Source: Streptococcus troglodytae (GTDB lineage: Bacteria > Bacillota > Bacilli > Lactobacillales > Streptococcaceae). From it: DNA of 64,000 nucleotides. The DNA is taken from assembly GCF_002355215.1 (NCBI RefSeq), contig NZ_AP014612.1, positions 62,001 to 126,000 of the forward strand, read 5' to 3'. The position numbers were made by a program, and so were the translations under genes. Shown here one piece after another: positions 33,710 to 50,180 of this stretch. The first letter of the stretch is position 1. Each line of letters begins with the position of its first letter. The notes under the pieces were generated by a model. The model was not told where the DNA came from, made no database searches, and saw only the letters and a list, made by a program, of their open reading frames with translations.

Positions 33710-34463
33710 GTATATTTTAGCTATTTCAGGTAACGATATTTTTAGTGGAGGTGGGCTTCATGCAGATCTAGCAACTTTCACAAGCCATCATTTACATGGT
33801 TTTGTAGCAGTGACTTGCTTAACAGCAATGACTGATAAAGGCTTTGAAGTGTTTGCAACAGACAGCACTGTTTTTGGCCATCAGCTCAGTAGCCTCAAAG
33901 ATGTGCCGCTTTCAGGTATTAAGCTTGGTCTTTTGCCTAATGTGGACATAGCAGAGCAGGCTTTGGATTTTGTTAAGGTACATGACGATCTTCCAGTAGT
34001 ACTGGATCCTGTCTTGGTTTGTAAAGAAAGTCATGATGTAGAGGTTAGTGCGTTGAGAGATGAGCTCTTAAAATTTTTCCCTTATGCTGCTGTTATTACT
34101 CCGAATTTGGCTGAAGCTGAATTATTGACGCAAATGCCAATAAAAAATCTTGATGATATGAAGGCAGCGGCCAAATGCCTTTATCATTTAGGTGCTAAAA
34201 ATGTTGTTGTTAAAGGAGGAACGCGGCTGAGTTCAAAACGAGCGATAGATGTCTTTTTTGATGGTGAAAAGGTAGAAATTTTGGATTATCCTCTGCTGGC
34301 AAATAACAATATCGGTGCAGGCTGTACTTTTGCATCAAGCATTGCCAGTCAAATAGTGTTAGGAAAGCCCGTTTTAGAAGCAGTTAAAGTATCCAAAGAA
34401 TTTGTCTATCAGGCTATTGAGCATTCAGATCAATACGGAGTCAATCAACATTATGAAAAATAG
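33699..34463 (+). CDS. ThiD/PdxK-type phosphomethylpyrimidine or pyridoxine kinase
   Basis: Ribokinase-fold vitamin kinase of about 254 residues. The start [19 protein letters not shown] has AGGAG upstream and overlaps truA. Conserved motifs: [31 protein letters not shown] and [15 protein letters not shown] (anion-hole GAGC with catalytic context). It is coupled by overlap to a gene for an ECF transporter S component, so it likely phosphorylates the vitamin that this carrier imports (HMP for thiamine, or a vitamin B6 form). The sequence alone does not decide which. Confidence 0.87.
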
Positions 34464-34916
34464 TAATTTACAAGAAATCAGTCTTTTAGCTATCCTAACA
34501 GCTTTAAGCGTTGTTTTTGGTTTATTTATTAAAATTCCGACACCAACTGGTTTTTTAACGTTATTGGACGCAGGTATTTATTTTACAGCCTTTTATCTAG
34601 GCTCCAAAGCAGCCGCGATTGTTGGTGGCTTATCAGGTTTTTTAATTGATTTGATTGCCGGTTACCCTAATTGGATGTTTGTCAGCTTTTTGGCGCATGG
34701 CTCACAAGGTTACTTTGCTGGTTGGACTGGGAAAAACAATTTTTAGGTCTTGCTTTAGCTTCTCTGTCTATGATTAGTATTTATTTACTCTGTTCCATTC
34801 CTATGTATGGATTAGGAGCTTCAATTGCTGGTGCTTGGGGCAATATTTTGCAAAATTTTTTTGGTATGTTTGTTGGTTATACGCTTAGCCTTGCCTATAG
34901 GCGCGTGAAGCCTTGA
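34453..34916 (+). CDS. ECF transporter S component (vitamin precursor), frameshifted
   Basis: A small integral membrane protein with about five to six helices, starting [19 protein letters not shown], of the ECF S-component group that captures a vitamin for a shared energising module. It overlaps the kinase gene upstream, suggesting uptake and phosphorylation of the same compound. The frame breaks at an A run (34732-34736, one A short; expected GKKQFLGLAL) and continues to 34916. About 154 residues after correction. Confidence 0.82.
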
Positions 34917-36863: not shown

Positions 36864-38146
36864 ATGTCTACATCATTTGAAAACAAAGCTACCAATCGTG
36901 GTGTTGTTACATTTACGATCAGTCAAGATAAAATCAAACCAGCTCTTGATCAGGCCTTTAATAAAGTGAAAAAGGATTTAACAGCACCAGGTTTCCGTAA
37001 AGGTCATATGCCACGTACAGTCTTTAATCAAAAATTTGGAGAAGAAGCTCTTTATGAAGAGGCTTTAAACAGTATTTTACCAGCAGCTTATGAAGAAGCC
37101 GTTGCTGAATTAGAACTTGATGTTGTCACTCAGCCAAAAGTTGATGTTAAATCAATGGAAAAAGGTAAGGATTGGGAAATTACAGCAGAAGTTGTAACAA
37201 AACCAGAAGTAAAGCTTGGAAATTACAAAAATCTTGAAGTATCAGTAGAAGAATCAAAAGAGGTTACTGATGCAGAAGTTGATGAAAAAATTGAACGTGA
37301 ACGCAATAATTTAGCTGAACTGGTTCTTAAAGAAGAAGCAGCCGTTGAAGGTGATACTGTCGTGATTGACTTTGTTGGTTCAGTTGATGGTGTTGAATTT
37401 GATGGTGGTAAAGGCGATAATTTCTCGCTTGAACTTGGTTCTGGTCAGTTTATCCCAGGTTTTGAAGAACAACTGGTTGGCAAAAAGGCTGGTGAAACAG
37501 TTAAGGTTAATGTCACTTTCCCAGAAGATTACCAATCTGCTGACCTTGCAGGAAAAGATGCAACATTCGTGACGACTATTCATGAAGTTAAGGCCAAGGA
37601 AGTTCCAGAACTTGATGATGAATTGGCTAAAGATATTGATGAAGAAGTTGAAACATTGGATGAACTAAAAGCTAAGTATCGTAAGGAACTGGAAGCTACT
37701 AAAGAGACTGCATACAATGATGCGGTTGAAACAGCAGTTATTGACCTAGCGGTTGCTAATGCTGAAATCGTTGAATTGCCAGAAGAGATGATTCATGATG
37801 AGGTCCAACGTGCGATGCAAGAATTCATGGGGAATATGCAGCGTCAAGGGATTTCACCAGAGATGTACTTCCAATTGACAGGTACAACTGAAGAGGATCT
37901 TCACAAGCAATATGAAGCGGATGCTGACAAACGCGTAAAACAAACCTTGTTATTGAAGCAGTTGCGAAAGCAGAAGGCTTTGAAGCGACAGATGAAGAAA
38001 TTGAAAAAGAAATTTCTGATCTTGCAACAGAATACAAGATGGAAGCTGAGCAAGTGCGTTCCCTTCTTTCACCAGATATGCTCAAACATGACATTGCAAT
38101 GAAAAAAGCGGTTGACGTTATTACTGATTCTGTTAAAGTGAAATAA
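36864..38146 (+). CDS. tig: Trigger factor, frameshifted near the C-terminus
   Basis: Ribosome-bound chaperone and peptidyl-prolyl isomerase, called RopA in S. mutans. The N-terminal ribosome-binding domain has GFRKGHMPR (about 43-51), followed by the FKBP-like domain with [17 protein letters not shown] and the C-terminal helical arms. One base is missing at about 37955 (expected [18 protein letters not shown]). The corrected frame ends at 38146, giving about 427 residues, the usual length. A terminator follows. In S. mutans this gene is linked to stress tolerance and competence. Confidence 0.95.
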
Positions 38147-38151
38147 AAATA

Positions 38152-38183
38152 AAAGCTAGATGGAAGAAACATCTGGCTTTTTG
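38152..38183 (+). terminator. tig terminator
   Basis: Stem AAAGCTAGATG / CATCTGGCTTT (one G-U pair) followed by TT, five bases after the tig stop. Confidence 0.8.
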
Positions 38184-38215
38184 AGTGCAAAAAATGTGAT
38201 TTTTTATGATCTGAT

Positions 38216-39043
38216 ACCCGTGGTGCTAGTTAATCTTTTAGTTCACAAAAAAGTTCATTTGGACTATGCTGTCAGTGACCAAACCGACAGCATAGTCCAA
38301 ATGAACGACTTTAATTATCACTCTAAAACTCATCACTTGCAATACAGCATGAAACAATTGAAACAATTTGTTCTCGATATTATTAGGAATATGCTCCAAC
38401 AGTTTTTCTAGTTCTTCAAGCAGAACTAGGTATCACATCTCAACGAAAATTCTATCGGATGTGTCGATTGTTTATTGGTGATACAGTTCTAGAAAAACTC
38501 GCTTTTATCGTAGAGCTCCGCTATCTCGTTCCTCTGCTAAAATTAATTCACCAATGGATGAGTAAGCAGTTTTTCCATGATGATACGGCTATTATAGATA
38601 GTTTTCCACTTCCACTTTGTCTACCAGCTGGAAATGGGGAAGCAAAGGCATTAAAGGAGCAAGCTGATATTTCCTATAAACCTTCTAAGAAAATGTAGTT
38701 TTATGGATTTAAAGTGCACATACTAGTCATGTGGCAGAAGCATTGATAGAAAACAGCCCATTTCCTTATATTCTAATGGATCTTGGTTACCTAAGCGTGC
38801 CTTTGAAGGCTCGTAAAAGGCATTGCTTTTGGACACCATTACGACAGAATATGGAAGGGGATAAAAAGCACAATCATTGGAAACTGCTAGTTCAACGACG
38901 GACAATTGAAATCAGATTTTTCGTTCTTTGTTCTGCCTTTGGTATCGAAAAAACATTGGCAAGAAGTTTGAAGGGAATTGAACTGTGGGTAGAACAAGTT
39001 GTTTGGGCTTATAATCTAAGATTTCTAAACTAGCACGAGGGGT
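38216..39043 (+). mobile_element. Decayed IS982-family element, copy 1
   Basis: The ends ACCCGTGGTGCTAGTTAATC (left) and AAACTAGCACGAGGGGT (right) are inverted repeats of each other. Inside are broken pieces of an IS982-type transposase, including HHLQYSMKQLKQF, a DDTAIIDSFPLPLC acidic-site segment and KTLARSLKGIELWVEQVVWAYN, with stops and lost segments. It forms the left border of the accessory island; copy 2 in the opposite direction forms the right border. Confidence 0.82.
38253..38306. repeat. Perfect 21-base inverted repeat inside IS copy 1
   Basis: Left arm 38253-38273 (GTTCATTTGGACTATGCTGTC begins it) and right arm 38286-38306 are exact reverse complements with a 12-base spacer. Copy 2 keeps the left-arm region without the right arm, so the right arm arose by local inverted duplication in copy 1. 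Confidence 0.8.
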
Positions 39044-39534
39044 AAACCTTATATTGATTTAATTGAGCAACTTGATAATCCAACTTTGATCATGTTTCTA
39101 AGAACGAATTTGGAACAGATTATAAAAAGATAACCTAACGATGATAAAAGGTACCGAACTACTAAAGTAGTCAACGCCTTTCTTTTGGAAGAATTTAAAA
39201 TAAGAAAGTAAAGTATCTTACCATATAGCTAACTACAACAGTAACAAAAACAAAAATGATAAGCAAATGGCGAGATAAATAATTCTTTTTAACATTGGGA
39301 GCCTCAACATCCTTCATCCTTAATCTACTAGGAAATTTGTGTAAAATAGTATAATTGCAAATATGAAAATAAATAAAAAAAAATCAGATTTGCAAATTTT
39401 TAAAAATTGTTATTAAGAGTGGTATAGTAAAAGTGTAAACAATTTAGTTAGATGTTTGCGATCAGATTATCATAAAGAAAATACTAGTTAGTTCTTTAAT
39501 AATAATCTGAAATCTAAAAAGGAGGACTGACATC
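39044..39534 (+). other. Island left end and upstream region of the peptide operon
   Basis: AT-rich. An extended -10 candidate TGGTATAGT (about 39420-39428) could drive the peptide gene through a leader of about 100 bases. A possible tiny minus-strand gene lies at 39195-39317. Otherwise nothing clear. Confidence 0.45.
39195..39317 (-). CDS. Possible 40-residue single-pass membrane protein
   Basis: The frame starts MKDVEAPNVKKNYLSRHLL and continues with a hydrophobic segment (IIFVFVTVVVSY) and a short basic-aromatic tail. The ribosome binding site is poor: a TAAGG abuts the start codon. It lies inside the island, divergent to the peptide gene. It could be a small immunity or membrane protein, or a chance frame. 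Confidence 0.25.
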   Translation of the reverse strand: MKDVEAPNVKKNYLSRHLLIIFVFVTVVVSYMVRYFTFLF

Positions 39535-39618
39535 ATGAAAAAACTTAGTAAGAAACAATCTCGTATTGTAAAAGCTGGTTGGGTATGTGTTGGTTGGGGC
39601 TTTGTTTGTTGGGGCTAA
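39535..39618 (+). CDS. Double-glycine-type precursor of a Trp/Cys-rich 12-residue peptide
   Basis: A 27-codon gene with perfect AAGGAGG nine bases before the ATG. The first 15 residues, MKKLSKKQSRIVKAG, fit the double-glycine leader consensus LSxxELxxIxGG position by position: Leu -12, Ser -11, Gln -8, Ser -7, Val -4, Ala -2, Gly -1. Cleavage after AG by the C39 protease encoded next would release WVCVGWGFVCWG, with four Trp and two Cys seven apart in a nearly mirror-symmetric order. I know no described bacteriocin or pheromone with this sequence. Neighbours (exporter, ABC immunity pair, two thioredoxin-fold proteins) suggest secretion and disulfide formation. Confidence 0.85.
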   Translation: MKKLSKKQSRIVKAGWVCVGWGFVCWG

Positions 39619-39642
39619 CTAACTAATGCTAAACTAAATTTT

Positions 39643-39673
39643 AGGTGGATAGGCATAAGCTATCCACCTTTTT
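39643..39673 (+). terminator. Attenuator hairpin after the peptide gene
   Basis: Perfect 10-base stem AGGTGGATAG (39643-39652) / CTATCCACCT (39660-39669) with T5. It stands between the precursor and the exporter gene, so the precursor should be transcribed in excess with readthrough into the operon. Confidence 0.88.
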
Positions 39674-39696
39674 AAAATAAAATGAAAGGGACTGGG

Positions 39697-41683
39697 ATGA
39701 AATATCACCATACGATGCAAGATCTTTCCTCAGATTGTGGTTTAGCCGTTGTCAAGTCAGTTTTATTGACGTATGGTAAGTATAATTCCACATCATTTTC
39801 TGGTCAAATCCAAAATTTTAATATCAATCAGGGATTATCCCTTTTAGATATTGAAGAGTTATTAGCTCATTTTGGTATATTTGGTAGTAATTATCAAGTT
39901 GATGATTTTAGTTATTTAAATTTTGAAACCCCTACTATTTTAGTGACAAAAAGGGATGGTATCAATCACTATATTTTGGTTTATGGTCGGCATGGAAATA
40001 AATTAATAGTTTCTAATCCTGACGAAAGTAAGCTTCTATATCAATCTGCTGAAGACATAGAAAATACTTTCAAAGGTTATGCTTACATTGTTGAAGAAAA
40101 TGTTCCTAGGGTTATTAGCCAAGAAAATAATAAGGAGGGGACATTGGGATTTAGGGATAAAGCAAATCTCTTCTTATTAAGTAGTCTTCTTTGGCTTATC
40201 CCTTTATTTATTATATTTTCTATACAATATTTAGTTGTTTATCAATCTAGAAATATGGCCTTACCGCAAATATTTTTAGCTACGATAATTTATCTATTAT
40301 TAATAATTATTTTTTTCATTGATAAACTTAGGTTAGATGATTTGGGTCAAAAGATTACTTTCAATAATAGATTAATTCAAGTTAATAACTTTATGGGAGG
40401 TATTAATAATAAAAAGATTGATCGCCAGCATAACATTTATAATGATTTAATTAAATTTTGGAATAATTTTTATGCTGCAAATAACAATGTGAAAATACTA
40501 ACAATAAAGTATGATTTGTTTTATATGGGTATTTTATTCTGTTTAATTTTGTTTTAAATCCTTTAATTTCTTTTTTACATTAGGCATTTTCTTAATATAT
40601 TTAACAGTATTTATGTTTACTAGGAATCAAAGAAGGAATGTTAATCGAGATTATCTTTCCAAAATAGGTGAACTATCAAACTTTATTGAAGAATTCATGC
40701 ATAATAAGATTGATAGACTTGTTTTCTCAAATAGAAGTGAAGTTGATAGTTACAGCTTGAATCTATTGAAGAAAATTGATACTGCAGATAAGAATCAGAA
40801 AGCAGAGTCAACAAAAGTTTTGGGAATTTATGATATGCTTATCTATCTTGAGTTGATTATTATATTTACATATATCTTATTTTCAGTATACTTTTCTGTG
40901 AAATTATCTGTTACTACTAGCTTGATTTGCTTTGTCCTTGTCTATATTATGTTTAATTTGGCAAGACCTTCTATTCACAAGTTATTAGATATTGAAAAAT
41001 ATTCTTTAAACAAAACTGGAGGATATCAAGATGAAATTGTAAATGGAAGTTCATCAGAATCTGCTCCTTTAATTGAAACAGTCGCTTTAAATAATGTTTC
41101 TTTTATCTATGATGATAGCGACAATGATATTATTAAAAATTTCAGTGCCCTGTTTGAAAATAATCAACTATCTATTATTAAAGGGCAAAATGGTTCTGGA
41201 AAAACTACTTTGTTACATCTATTGATGGGGATTGAGAGACCTAGTGCAGGAGAAATTAAATATTTGGATAAAGGAAAAGTTTACAATGTTAATCAATTTA
41301 ATTTATTGAAACAGGTCTCTTACTACTCTAGTGATGAATATTTAAATTATACTTCGATTGAGAGAAATATCCGTTATAACATTTATAATGATGATTTTAA
41401 AAATAAAATTGAAAATTATTTCAATCTTCCCTTAGATAAAGTAATTTTTTACAATGGGGAAAATTTATCGCTTGGAGAAGGGCAAAAGGTTTTGTTAACA
41501 AGGTGTCTGAATAAGAAAGCCAATATTTATATTTTTGACGAACCGACTACTAATTTGGATACAGATTCCAAAGATAAATTTTATCATTTAGTCAAATCGC
41601 TGAAAGACAAAGCTATGGTAATCATTGTTGCACACGATAATCAATTTGATAGGTTGGCTAATCAAATTATTGAGCTAAATTAA
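39697..41683 (+). CDS. C39-peptidase ABC exporter (PCAT type), frameshifted
   Basis: Bifunctional exporter that cuts a double-glycine leader and secretes the peptide. The ATG at 39697 has GAAAGGG upstream and gives MKYHHTMQDLSSDCG, with the C39 Gln, Asp and catalytic Cys. The catalytic His (DGINHYILVYG) and Asp (SNPDE) follow. Next come the membrane domain and an ATPase domain with Walker A GQNGSGKTT, signature LSLGEGQ (for LSGGQ), Walker B IYIFDEP and switch His (VAHD). Two short T runs (40552-40555 and 40571-40576) appear one base short each; adding them gives a continuous LFLNPLISFFTLGIFL helix. About 660 residues. Downstream of the precursor and its attenuator. Confidence 0.9.
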
Positions 41684-41696
41684 TTGAGGTACTGAT

Positions 41697-42092
41697 ATGA
41701 AGAAGAAAATTATTATTATTTCATTTGTTTTAATTGCTATTAGTGGAATAGCTGCTTTTAAATTGACTCAGAGTGGAAGTGTCAAAATTGGGACTGCTGA
41801 CGGTAATTATAAATCTTTGCCTCTTGGAACATATACAGTTGGTGATGATATAAAGCTAAAAGATGGGAAGTATGCTGTGTATGCTTTGGAGGGAAGTGGC
41901 TCTGTTACTATTGGTGGTAAAAAATACCATATATCCGATCGTTCTTATAAAAAAGCAAAGAAAAAAGGACTACCTGAGAATGCACGATATGGAATTTTAT
42001 ACGAAGATAGTCCAAAAATTATTGTAAAAAAGGGTTCAAAGGTAATAGTCGAAGGAAAACGAAATTTTAGGATTTCGTTTGTCCGAAGATAA
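41697..42092 (+). CDS. Membrane-anchored beta protein of the peptide operon
   Basis: A 131-residue protein: an N-terminal signal anchor (about 5-24), then an extracellular, basic, beta-rich domain with LPLGTYTVGDDIKLKDGKYAV and GSGSVTIGG. This resembles the small GTY-VG-DI-xxGxY domains found in secreted Gram-positive proteins. The C-terminus (SKVIVEGKRNFRISF) looks like a final strand pair. Position 13 bases after the exporter and 12 before the ABC ATPase makes it part of the operon. A role in immunity or in binding the peptide at the surface is only inferred. Confidence 0.7.
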   Translation: MKKKIIIISFVLIAISGIAAFKLTQSGSVKIGTADGNYKSLPLGTYTVGDDIKLKDGKYAVYALEGSGSVTIGGKKYHISDRSYKKAKKKGLPENARYGILYEDSPKIIVKKGSKVIVEGKRNFRISFVRR

Positions 42093-42104
42093 GAGGATTC
42101 ACTT

Positions 42105-42945
42105 ATGTTGGAAATAAAAAACTTGGAAAAAACCTATTCTAAACAACAGGTCTTGAAATCTATTTCAGTATCAGCTAGACAAGGTAAAATTATTGGACTT
42201 GTTGGTGTTAATGGATCAGGAAAATCTACACTGTTAAAATGCATTTCTGGTCTAATTCAAGATTATAACGGTCTAGTGCATTACGATGGGAAAATCTCTT
42301 ACTCTATTGAAAACCCGACTTTCTACAATAATATAACAGTCTATACAAATTTAAAGTTGTTTACTACCCTGTCTGGGACGGTTAGCGAAAAAACTATAGA
42401 TAATATTTTAGAAAAGGTGGGCTTAACCGATGCAAAAATAAAAAGTATCAGAGTTATCATTAGGAATGAAGCAAAAGCTAGCTATTGCTAGGATGATATT
42501 GTCAGGTGGTGATATCTTTTTGCTAGATGAACCGTTTAATGGTTTAGATTATATTACTAAACTTCAGTTGAGAGATATAATTTTGGATTTAAAGGGGGAA
42601 GGAAAATTAATTATTATTTCCTCTCACATTCTAGAAGAACTTGGACAAATTTGTGATACAGTTTGGCACTTAACTAATGGGTTACTAAAGAGTAGTATAA
42701 ATTTGCAAGACAACAATAGAATTTATACGCTTCGTTTTATAGACCAGCCTAATGCTCTTAAATTTTGCCAAGATTATTTCCAAGTAGATTCTTTTTCCAT
42801 AGAAGGTAATATTGTAACTATTAAAATTCCTATTGAGAGGAGTAAAGTTACGAGTGCCATTGAGTATTTGGTGAAGAATCAGTTTATGTTGATAGAATTT
42901 TATGACTCTACCAATAATCTTTTGGATGTCTTAGTCGAAGAATGA
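42105..42945 (+). CDS. ABC transporter ATP-binding protein (immunity type), frameshifted
   Basis: BcrA/LanF-like ATPase. It has Walker A GVNGSGKST (about 35-43), signature LSLGMKQKL, Walker B IFLLDEPFNGLD and switch His (SSHI). The frame breaks near 42430-42445 in a stretch with two A5 runs; the second part reads KVSELSLGMKQKLAIARM. Together with the permease that follows it would pump an antimicrobial peptide away from the membrane, as in the self-protection modules of bacteriocin clusters. About 280 residues. Confidence 0.87.
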
Positions 42946-42955
42946 AAGGGGTACT

Positions 42956-43593
42956 ATGATTCATTATCTAAAGTCAGAATGGCTGAGGTTAAAGAGAAAC
43001 AAATTAATTTTAATCTTTATTGTTTTAGATTTACTTCTTTTTTCTTATCTTTTTTATAAGAAAAAAGCACTTCCATCAGCAAGTAAAATATTTATGATGG
43101 TTAATTTGTTTTTTGTCAGCTGCTCTTTTGTTTTGTCTTTTGGAGAAATTTTAGAAAAAGGGATCATTAGGTATTATTTAGAATATGTGCCTAATCGTTT
43201 TAAATTTATCAATTATATTTTATTAAAGTATGTTGGCTTGTTACTTCTGGTTTGCATGTTTTCTATGTCTTTAATGTCAGGGGATATCGCTGATCAATTT
43301 CTTGTTTATTTGATTTTTTCACTTTTATACTTAATGGTAAACACTATCATTATTATTAATATTGGAAAGGCTGGGATAGGGTTATTATTATCTATAATTA
43401 GTTTATGGATTTTACCGGATTTAGTAAATTATATTTTTAGCAAAACTGGCCTTTTTAATATTCAGTTAGCTTATTATTTATCTCCTAGTACCTTTCAAAG
43501 CATAGGTACCATATATAATTTATTAATTCCTTTTCTCTATATTTTCTTTTTTATCTAGTATCTGTTTACCAATTCAATAGAAAGGAATTCTAA
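42956..43593 (+). CDS. ABC-2 type permease (immunity type), frameshifted at the end
   Basis: A hydrophobic protein with six predicted membrane helices, starting MIHYLKSEWLRLKRNKLIL, the usual amphipathic entry of LanE/BcrB-like permeases. In the given bases it stops at 43558. The T run at 43547-43552 seems one base short; with one more T the frame runs on (FFFYLVSVYQFNRKEF) and stops at 43593, exactly abutting the next ATG. It pairs with the ATPase upstream. Confidence 0.8.
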
Positions 43594-43992
43594 ATGAGGG
43601 AAAAAATATTTCCTATTTTGTTGCTACTATCGTTTGGAGCAATTTTATTCTTGGGAATTAGCTTAATGAACTCGTCTCCTCAACCACAATTTTCAATACT
43701 GAAAGATAATAATATTAAATCTCTACAAGAGGGTGAACTATTATATTATGGAAATACCACTTGCCAAGAGTTTAATAAGGTTTTAAAAACTTATCAAGAT
43801 GAAACGGGAGTAAAAATTTACCATTGGGAAACTACAAATTCTGAAATAGTACAAAAAGCGGCCAACCTAAAAGTATATAAAACTCCGACAACTATTATAA
43901 AGAACCAAAATGGTAATCTGGTAAAAATTGAAGGTTATCATTCGCTCAAACATTTTAAGAAATTTATCAAGAATATGGGGGGTAAAAAATGA
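43594..43992 (+). CDS. Membrane-anchored thioredoxin-fold protein, single Cys (Bta-like)
   Basis: A 132-residue protein with an N-terminal membrane anchor (about 5-25) and a thioredoxin-like domain outside the cell. The active-site region reads YGNTTCQEF: the first Cys is kept, but the partner of CxxC is missing. The cis-proline loop is present (YKTPTTII). Similar proteins in bacteriocin loci are called transport accessory proteins (Bta). The stop overlaps the next gene by four bases (ATGA). A role in disulfide handling of the two-Cys peptide is inferred. Confidence 0.75.
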   Translation: MREKIFPILLLLSFGAILFLGISLMNSSPQPQFSILKDNNIKSLQEGELLYYGNTTCQEFNKVLKTYQDETGVKIYHWETTNSEIVQKAANLKVYKTPTTIIKNQNGNLVKIEGYHSLKHFKKFIKNMGGKK

Positions 43993-44492
43993 AAAAGATT
44001 ATCAAGTTTATTTTACCAATTCTTTTATTAGTCAGTCTGGGGATAAATCTCAATCTAATCTTAAGTAAGAACCCTACAGAAAAATTTCGTAATTCAGAAG
44101 ATAAGAATTTAGAAATATATAAGTATTTGGATAGTATGCAATTAGCAAATTTTGAGGCAAAATATAATACTGGTCAGAAATTAGTGGTATACATAGGAAG
44201 ACCCACTTGTGAGGACTGTAATAATTTTGATAAAATTTTCGTGAAGTATATAAAGCAGTATGATCTTTCCTCTAAAATGATTTATGTTAACGTAGATGAA
44301 TTATATAAAAATAAGTCAAAATGGGAACGATTTAAGCAGACATATGATATCAAAGGGACACCCTCATTGGTTATTTATGAAAATAAGAAGGTGATTTCTA
44401 AATTAGACTTTGAGGAAATGCATGGATTCACTCCTGATGATATAAAAAAATGGATGATGGAAAACAATTTAGCGGAAGAATCAGACAAATAA
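43989..44492 (+). CDS. Membrane-anchored thioredoxin-like oxidoreductase with CxxC
   Basis: A 167-residue protein: an N-terminal anchor (about 5-25), then a thioredoxin fold with the full active site RPTCEDCNNF (about 75-84) and cis-proline KGTPSLVIY. Overlaps the single-Cys homologue upstream. As the last gene of the operon it would oxidise or isomerise the Cys pair of the exported peptide, with the single-Cys protein as partner. No electron-transfer partner (CcdA or DsbB type) is seen nearby. Confidence 0.8.
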   Translation: MKKIIKFILPILLLVSLGINLNLILSKNPTEKFRNSEDKNLEIYKYLDSMQLANFEAKYNTGQKLVVYIGRPTCEDCNNFDKIFVKYIKQYDLSSKMIYVNVDELYKNKSKWERFKQTYDIKGTPSLVIYENKKVISKLDFEEMHGFTPDDIKKWMMENNLAEESDK

Positions 44493-44515: not shown

Positions 44516-45401
44516 ACCCGTGGTGCTAGTTAAAAAATCTTGGGTTATAAGCAAAGATAGTCTGATCTAACCAAAGTTTCAGACCTTTTAAGTTTCTTAC
44601 TAATGGTCTTTCCATATCAAATTCAGAGCAGAAAACTGAGAATCGCATTTCAATGATTAACCTTTCAGCTTTGAGCCACCACTGATTATTCTGTTTAGTC
44701 TTTGCCATATTGCGCCTCAAGGGAGTTCAAAAGATTATAGTCTAGTATTAAGGGAACCCCAGTCAGCTTGGACAACAGGAAAGGTCGTGTTCTCAAGCAG
44801 TTCTTCGGCCATCTGACGGTCGTAAACAGAGGCTGGTGTCACAACATAGTTCAAATAAACCCTGACAGGGGTCGCCAGAATACGGTCTTTAAAGCCGTAA
44901 AACCACATCTTTTTTGAAGGATTGCAGGCCACAGTTGCTTGATCCTTAAAATACGAACCTTATAGTTGCGAGCTGGCAAACAAACGGGTATCGGAAAGCT
45001 ATCCATGATGATGATATCATCCTGATGGAATTGCTCGGTCATGCCTTGATGAATGAGCTTCAACAAGGTAATGAGGTAGCGAGCCCTTCAGTAAAATCGG
45101 GTTCGCTTTAAGCCAGTTTTTACAAGAAATATCTGGCATAGCTGATAGAATCGACGTTGAAATTTGATGCCGTGTTCAGCTTGAAGCGATAAAAGGATAA
45201 GAACGGAGCTGTCGCTAATTTTACAATAATTGACATTTCGACGGTGCGTCAGTTCTTTAGGGGCATAGAGTTGATAATAATAGGAGTACATTGCCTTTAA
45301 TTGTTCTATACCATATTGTAAGTGATGCCGTTTCGTATGAACACTTACAGCATCATCCAAATGAACTTTTTTGTGAACTAAAAGATTAACTAGCACCATG
45401 G
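44516..45401 (-). mobile_element. Decayed IS982-family element, copy 2
   Basis: Bounded by ACCCGTGGTGCTAGTTAA (44516) and TTAACTAGCACCATGG (to 45401), the same inverted ends as copy 1 in the opposite direction. The transposase is broken into four frames; pieces include KKVHLDDAVSVHTKRHHLQYG, DDIIIMDSFPIPVCLPA (acidic site) and RNLKGLKLWLDQTIFAYNPRF. It is more complete than copy 1 but still interrupted, some of it perhaps by sequencing errors. Confidence 0.85.
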
Positions 45402-49175: not shown

Positions 49176-49300
49176 GTTGCCTAGATTAGTTAGAGAAAAG
49201 GTTGAAACTTTTGATAAGGGCTGGCAATTTTATTGTAAAAGTGATAAAATAAACAACGTAATGGGTTTGACCCAAAAAATATTTAGGAGGCCTTTAAAAA

Positions 49301-50180
49301 TGGCAATCGTTTCAGCAGAAAAATTTGTCCAAGCAGCTCGTGATAATGGTTATGCTGTCGGTGGATTTAACACTAACAACCTTGAATGGACTCAGGCTAT
49401 CTTGCGTGCAGCAGAAGCTAAAAAAGCTCCTGTTCTCATTCAAACTTCTATGGGTGCTGCCAAATATATGGGTGGTTATAAACTTTGTAAAGTTCTTATT
49501 GAAACTCTTGTAGAATCAATGGGAATTACTGTGCCAGTTGCTATCCACCTTGACCATGGTCATTATGAAGATGCTCTTGAATGTATCGAAGTTGGCTATA
49601 CTTCAATTATGTTTGATGGTTCTCATCTTCCAGTTGAAGAAAATCTTGAAAAAGCTAAAGAAGTTGTTGCAAAAGCACATGCTAAAGGTATTTCAGTAGA
49701 AGCTGAAGTTGGTACTATCGGTGGTGAAGAAGATGGTATCATCGGCCGCGGTGAATTGGCACCAATCGATGACGCTAAAGCAATGGTCGAAACCGGTATT
49801 GATTTCTTGGCAGCTGGTATTGGTAATATTCACGGTCCATACCCAGCAAATTGGGAAGGGCTTGATCTTGATCACTTGAAAAAATTGACAGAGGCTGTTC
49901 CAGGTTTCCCAATTGTACTTCACGGTGGTTCAGGTATTCCTGATGACCAAATCCGCGCAGCAATTAAACTTGGTGTTGCCAAAGTTAATGTTAATACTGA
50001 ATGTCAAATCGCATTTGCTAATGCTACACGTAAATTTGCTGCTGAATACGAAGCAAATGAAGCAGAATACGACAAGAAAAACTCTTTGACCCACGTAAAT
50101 TCTTGAAACCAGGTTTTGAAGCTATTACAGAAGCGGTTGAAGAACGTATTGATGTCTTTGGTTCAGAAGGTAAAGCTTAA
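49301..50180 (+). CDS. fba: Fructose-bisphosphate aldolase class II, frameshifted near the end
   Basis: Glycolytic zinc aldolase that splits fructose 1,6-bisphosphate. The true start is MAIVSAEKFVQAA at 49301, with AGGAGG upstream; the open frame from 49174 is longer only by chance. Zinc and phosphate motifs are present: HLDHGHYEDALE, EAEVGTIGGEEDG, GNIHGPYP and LHGGSGIPD. One A is missing from the run 50077-50081 (expected KKLFDPRKFLKPG). The corrected protein of about 293 residues ends at 50180. This gene is needed for growth on sugars, so the break cannot be real. Confidence 0.96.

Follow-up and report, generated by a model that had tools for sequence, protein, structure and literature searches.

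A seven-gene cassette at 39535..44492 of a 64,000-nucleotide stretch of the Streptococcus troglodytae genome (2.1 Mb; contig NZ_AP014612.1, positions 62,001 to 126,000; hereafter the window) probably encodes, to judge from its genes, a member of a family of very short, disulfide-closed bacteriocins that are exported by a C39 peptidase ATP-binding cassette (ABC) transporter and spread as a mobile cassette. Support for this comes from the peptide itself: it is conserved across five separate loci, including one carried by a phage that infects an actinobacterium. The original prediction, made from the window alone, had named a precursor gene followed by six further genes, and all six were found in the order given. 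The features, all on the plus strand, are the following:

39520..39525: ribosome binding site AGGAGG, 9 bases 5' of the ATG (read from the sequence)
39535..39579: leader MKKLSKKQSRIVKAG, with Leu -12, Val -4, Ala -2 and Gly -1 in an alignment of five relatives
39580..39618: predicted mature core WVCVGWGFVCWG with Cys 3 and Cys 10, plus stop
39643..39669: hairpin, a possible terminator or attenuator, with 10 perfect pairs, a loop of 7 and then four T
39682..40557: the exporter's C39 peptidase and initial membrane portion (PF03412, 6e-14), where the frame stops
40613..41683: remainder of the exporter, with its ABC ATPase, in a different frame (PF00005, 2e-20)
41697..42092: membrane-anchored small beta protein
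42105..42945: ABC ATPase of a probable immunity transporter, split into 42105-42491 and 42466-42945
42956..43558: permease of the probable immunity transporter, with homologues in S. sciuri and S. mitis at 33% identity
43594..43992: anchored protein with a thioredoxin fold (Trx1); it has a single Cys, and its thioredoxin matches are weak and fall short of the cut-off
43989..44492: second anchored protein with this fold (Trx2), with CEDC (PF20207, 3.5e-8; Thioredoxin_2, 7.6e-7)

The 27-codon gene at 39535-39615 is genuine. It opens with the ATG at 39535, has the perfect ribosome binding site described for it and, with its stop reaching to 39618, encodes MKKLSKKQSRIVKAG followed by WVCVGWGFVCWG. 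The 15-residue leader ends in Lys-Ala-Gly. A 12-residue mature peptide had been claimed, and cores of this length are predicted at all five loci, with the common pattern W-x-C-x-x-W-G-F-x-C-W-x. Because Ser and Thr are absent from these five cores, lanthionine rings are excluded for them. Regardless of loop length, every full-length peptide read has one Cys as its third core residue and another as its third-last residue, and finishes in Cys-Trp-X; the core of one streptococcal genome, G200, has an additional Cys at its very end. Ala-Gly occupies -2/-1 in each of the five 12-residue types as in every other full-length peptide read, and -12 is Leu or Met in every peptide read except that of G252, where the leader holds an insertion. 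At -8 the four streptococcal 12-residue types have Gln; Glu stands there in most peptides of the 16-residue type, in that of the phage and in one from G152, and no leader read has Leu at -7. Among the four streptococcal peptide genes, nonsynonymous divergence (dN, 0.09-0.20) lies well below synonymous divergence (dS, 0.55-1.24) in 6/6 pairs.

The core and the exporter single out the same genomes. A search of 335 family genomes with the DNA-level pattern for GW[VIM]C[VIM]GWGF, tolerating up to one mismatch, picked out four, each of them a perfect match, and the same pattern read backwards matched none of the 335. With the exporter half as query, 22 of the 284 genus genomes gave matches at E <= 1e-8: four, the window's own among them, reached E <= 9e-62, and the remaining 18 lay between 6e-17 and 7e-9. 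The four core-pattern genomes are those same four (4/4). Complete cassettes in the same order are present in Streptococcus sciuri SQ9-PEA (G197) and S. mitis 1001175st1_H6 (G096), where the exporters are unbroken (665 and 690 residues) and the cores are WVCIGWGFICWG and WICIGWGFICWG. In G200 the peptide gene (core WVCIGWGFVCWC) lies beside an exporter broken by stops, on a short contig that ends soon after with what is, by eye, a transposase-like end. Directly 5' of this peptide gene (L036:315-6827) we noticed by eye an apparent peptide-modification cluster with nitroreductase-like, LanB-like and peptidase genes and an ABC pair; the LanB-like protein looks like part of a separate cluster.

Larger collections were covered as well. 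When an exporter alignment was compared with 5.8 billion proteins, at least five of the scored set (7989 candidates sharing most words) reached E <= 1e-40, two of them standing for 108 and 156 member sequences. The protein database gave 33 matches for the beta protein, including the window's own, S. danieliae and one on 163 contigs, and 12 for Trx2. Among 72,556 plasmid records the S. mitis exporter had one distant match (26%), in Weissella hellenica pMBEL1842 (L105:5804-8443), a plasmid that also has a gene for a thioredoxin and a candidate precursor missing from its annotation, MKKLTDTAAQQISAGKKWHWPHFVNVCSKSPFVHRCTWTLQ.

The same query against 50,697 phage records gave a single match at E <= 1e-20, to Gardnerella phage vB_Gva_AB1 (MW387018.1), with 53% identity over 97% of the query. 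ORF53-ORF58 of this phage are an exporter, a small protein, a 'lantibiotic transport ATP-binding protein', a hypothetical protein and two thioredoxin family proteins; the comparisons made with their S. sciuri and S. mitis counterparts gave identities of 46-61%. The precursor, MKKLTLEESRSIRAG / WMCVVWGFICWG, is unannotated in the gap 5' of ORF53 and has AGGAG upstream; with it, the seven-gene order is identical in the three complete loci of S. sciuri, S. mitis and the phage.

L104:6715-6795 (MW387018.1): phage precursor gene, heading a full bacteriocin-like cassette, at a place where the record has no gene

Near-identical copies of the phage cassette are present on two viral contigs. An apparently secreted 187-residue protein is encoded 3' of the phage cassette (L104:12421-12984, L109:6353-6916), in both viral contigs (84% and 100%); at a similar place S. 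sciuri has, by eye, a secreted phospholipase A2-like protein (L035:7901-8458). Further out from the cassette, both S. sciuri and the phage carry helix-turn-helix or sigma-like genes.

Longer cores of 16, 17 and 23 residues occur in ten more genus genomes; they keep Cys 3, end in Cys-Trp-X and include, after Ala-Gly, RFCIIGLRYGVGIFCWD, RFCIIGFPGGGGFLCWD, RFCIVGLPKRKGLFCWD and QFCAVSPLGIYGMLTGIGFFCWS. A profile built from ten peptides matched 18 of the 284 genus genomes at E <= 0.05, and the 14 at E <= 9e-4 make up the family (four with the 12-residue core, ten others); this search added the core QICLYYWYGIGFLCWD, and the four matches outside the 14 were dropped as chance. Of 398 in a class-wide draw the profile picked out two, G255 and the genome of the window itself. 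The exporters of the longer types align at 24-26% over their full length (best pair E 1e-47), except for one type that aligns in its C-terminal part only; for two ordinary C39 exporters of nearly full length the same comparison yielded no more than partial alignments. The longer-type loci also contain the ATPase, permease and anchored beta protein, with a Trx protein in L056, L057 and L060 and, in several, a helix-turn-helix regulator; several different peptides occur within single related loci. We consider it an even question whether all of this forms one family of ultra-short ring peptides (12, 16, 17 and 23 residues) with its own C39 subfamily, reaching from Firmicutes to an actinobacterium and carried as phage cargo that would give the Gardnerella host a bacteriocin together with immunity.

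Loci that have lost the exporter bear on the function of the ABC genes. Only the 16-residue type was read in six genomes; the exporter is deleted in five of them (G259, G255, G064, G254, G252), leaving 32 N-terminal or 155 C-terminal residues as two different remnants, and is kept in the sixth, G256. In the same five genomes none of the regulator, ATPase, permease and beta protein is truncated, and their identity to those of G262 is 96-98%. Likewise, in one of three phage-type loci all that is left of the exporter is residues 1-59 and 627-669, whereas the peptide and the five other proteins (beta protein, ATPase, permease, Trx1 and Trx2) retain their full length (97-99%). Altogether, six loci, five of the 16-residue type and one of the phage type, have lost the exporter and kept the ABC ATPase, permease and anchored beta protein. 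Since cells that no longer export a toxin would still need protection from it, this retention suggests that the ABC and beta proteins form an immunity module. For both window pieces of the ATPase and for two intact homologues the best NCBIfam family was TIGR03740 (LanF type), always below cut-off; the window permease gave no family in the Pfam and NCBIfam comparison, and the beta protein is, judged from its model, perhaps cupin-like. Comparison thus lends support to the original assignment of the ABC pair to immunity, through its best family and its retention where the exporter is lost.

The C39 site holds Gln, Cys and His in all seven exporters examined, and its fourth residue is Asp in four and Asn in three. 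At this triad position the window (motif SNP), S. mitis and G200 have Asn, and S. sciuri and the phage have Asp. Papain has Asn at the corresponding position. In PCAT1 the triad Asp is D115 (PMC6959990). The S. sciuri, S. mitis and phage cassettes each encode two thioredoxin-fold proteins with CxxC. Window Trx1 reads NTTCQEF where S. sciuri and S. mitis read SSSCEVCQEF, a 9-base in-frame gap having removed one Cys. Against TIGR01295 (PedC/BrcD disulfide isomerase) Trx2 scored 33.2 and Trx1 15.8 bits, neither reaching the cut-off of 120. The membrane anchor of S. mitis H6 Trx2 lies in a separate short frame just 5' of its gene (L037:1243-1721).

A perfect hairpin of 10-16 pairs stands between peptide gene and exporter in 5/5 loci, and 0, 3, 0, 0 and 0 of 1000 dinucleotide-preserving shuffles reached it, the window being among those with 0/1000. 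The window hairpin was missing from the list of the automatic hairpin scan, and the phage hairpin (12 pairs) has no T run. In the same gap S. sciuri (L035:2767-3006) and S. mitis (L037) share, by eye, a second inverted repeat of the type ACAGAATAT ... ATATTTTGTCTG. Spaced inverted repeats, TTGCAAATATGA ... TCAGATTTGCAA, seen by eye 5' of the window peptide gene (39355-39395) and in similar form in G200 (L036, upstream of 7233), are a possible operator of some regulator.

From these elements we propose the following mechanism. Given the hairpin 3' of its gene, the 27-residue precursor would probably be made in excess over the exporter, whose C39 domain would cut after Ala-Gly and free the 12-residue peptide. 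Outside the cell, the anchored thioredoxin-fold proteins would join Cys3 and Cys10 in a disulfide; the resulting ring of 8 residues would be preceded by a dipeptide containing Trp and followed by Trp-Gly. The target of the peptide might be the membrane of neighbouring bacteria or a receptor on their surface, with the LanF-like ABC ATPase and permease and the anchored beta protein shielding the producer.

Several points weigh against this proposal. Typical bacteriocins are cationic, and a hydrophobic 12-mer without charged side chains differs from them. Window Trx1 lacks CxxC. Even the intact ATPase homologues score 156.4 (S. sciuri) and 163.3 bits (S. mitis) against TIGR03740, with a cut-off of 309.75. 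At 96-98% identity the exporter losses may be recent and the retained genes may not yet have decayed, and the five deletions are perhaps only two events. Finally, L055 (G124) and L059 (G114) keep the exporter and ABC module, and neither the open reading frame list nor the profile search gave a peptide there.

In the window itself the cassette is partly broken. The exporter start at 39697 agrees with the relatives and the product of 40613..41683 aligns with the C-terminal half of the intact homologues of 665-690 residues, with more than one frame change between 39682-40557 and 40613-41683. Neither the exporter nor the ATPase is a single open frame here, a point that the original prediction had missed. 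What stood of its observations were the gene, leader, core and gene order, and what did not were the intact frames, the full CxxC pair and, beside Gln, Cys and His, the triad Asp, which is replaced by Asn. Its interpretation of a peptide, C39 exporter, disulfide pathway and ABC immunity is supported by comparison with relatives, except for 'all catalytic residues' and a working thioredoxin pair in the window.

Beyond the cassette, 3 of the 16 window genes that allowed comparison also change frame, each time within or next to a homopolymer and with the conserved remainder readable in another frame. The comparison used the open frames of relatives over five 20-kb stretches of four genomes and was counted by hand; the 16 genes leave out antisense matches and the cassette's own ATPase. 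These three genes and the remnants that flank the cassette are:

34402-34916: ECF transporter component, frame change near 34735
36864-38131: trigger factor, frame change near 37940
49300-50180: class II aldolase, frame change near 50075
38160..39033, plus strand: degraded transposase-like remnant upstream (read from the sequence)
44526..45399, minus strand: related degraded remnant downstream, inverted (tblastx E 3e-66 between the flanks)

With its patchy spread, its low G+C (29% versus 37% for the window) and these inverted flanking remnants, the cassette looks mobile. A reading at the level of this strain, which does not compete with the others, is that the cassette is dead, exporter and ATPase being true pseudogenes and the peptide a relic. 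The two broken frames, the Cys lost from Trx1 and the flanking remnants would fit, and the 9-base in-frame gap differs in kind from the homopolymer frame changes. Yet class II aldolase is essential, and because unrelated window genes including this one break alike at homopolymers, assembly (indel) errors are the simpler and probable cause of the exporter and ATPase breaks. As there is also no break in the frames of the peptide, beta protein, permease or Trx2, we regard a dead cassette as possible and rather doubtful.

We also considered that the peptide might be a secreted signal, processed and exported like the competence pheromones and sensed by neighbours, with the ABC module as importer or sensor. 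Known pheromones do include very short C39-exported peptides, and the regulator of L057, a related locus with the 17- and 23-residue types, is ComR-type (PF18710, 1.5e-64). However, the gene lists of the window, S. sciuri and phage cassettes, as read and with no dedicated sensor search made, contain no histidine kinase or Rgg/ComR-like gene, and no other sensor or regulator is seen in that of the window cassette. Moreover, related loci hold several different peptides each, and disulfide genes with a LanF-like ABC pair are unusual for pheromones. The ComR-type loci ScuR/SarF of S. salivarius and scb of S. pneumoniae resemble the related longer-peptide cluster in their regulator, but the portions of those papers available concern other loci (PMC6703854, PMC11796350), and no ComR-type gene is seen in the window cassette. 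Because the ABC and beta genes are retained, the ATPase resembles those of lantibiotic protection and no sensor or regulator is seen in the window cassette, we prefer a bacteriocin and judge a pheromone unlikely.

Less likely still is a bacteriocin whose cysteines are not joined within the molecule: it would be a covalent dimer, or a peptide whose thiols, kept reduced by the thioredoxins, bind a metal or haem. In favour of this, proteins of the thioredoxin fold are able to catalyse reduction as well as oxidation, the G200 core ends in a third Cys and window Trx1 has a single one. Against it, every full-length peptide read has two Cys at constant distance from both ends, with an extra only in G200, and Trx2 bears some resemblance to PedC/BrcD (33 bits, below the cut-off of 120).

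A disulfide-closed bacteriocin would, by comparison, work like a class II system with C39 export and disulfide formation, combined with an ABC module of the lantibiotic kind, although no curated cut-off (PedC/BrcD, LanF, TIGR01193) was passed. Class II bacteriocins are far longer than a 12-residue core. Those of the pediocin PedC/BrcD type share a thioredoxin-fold maturation protein beside precursor and exporter; Trx2, however, stays at 33 of 120 bits, and their immunity is a single protein rather than ABC-type. Pediocin-like (class IIa) members have a YGNGV-type box, which is absent from the window core. LanFEG is the best-matching ATPase family, and the phage record labels its copy accordingly; yet the ATPase stays below the family cut-off and there is one permease gene here instead of the two of LanEG. 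Unlike lanthipeptides, the 12-residue cores lack Ser and Thr, and LanB/C/M families were not among the matches listed for the window cassette proteins. PCAT1/CtA, ComAB, BlpAB and RtgAB, as described in PMC6959990, are alike in their short leader, small pair before the cut, adjoining C39 exporter and conserved Gln/Cys/His. The double-glycine consensus given there is L(-12), E(-8), L(-7), from which the streptococcal 12-residue leaders differ at -8 and all leaders read at -7; the 15-residue leader, the Asn in three loci and an exporter scoring 67 bits against TIGR01193, the usual bacteriocin exporter family (cut-off 524), also set the present system apart.

In the open-access literature, the scope of this search, no paper with the peptide strings or a description of the system was found. 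The claim that the peptide matches no known one holds to that extent, and it is not isolated, given its longer relatives and phage-borne member. Should the prediction hold, the product would rank with the smallest ribosomal bacteriocins exported by a C39 transporter, and with a disulfide as the only modification needed it would be easy to synthesise and test. Precursor genes of this size are short enough to escape annotation, as in the phage record, and such systems may be under-counted. The copy in the Gardnerella phage points to phages that move peptide weapons together with immunity between bacteria of the human microbiota.

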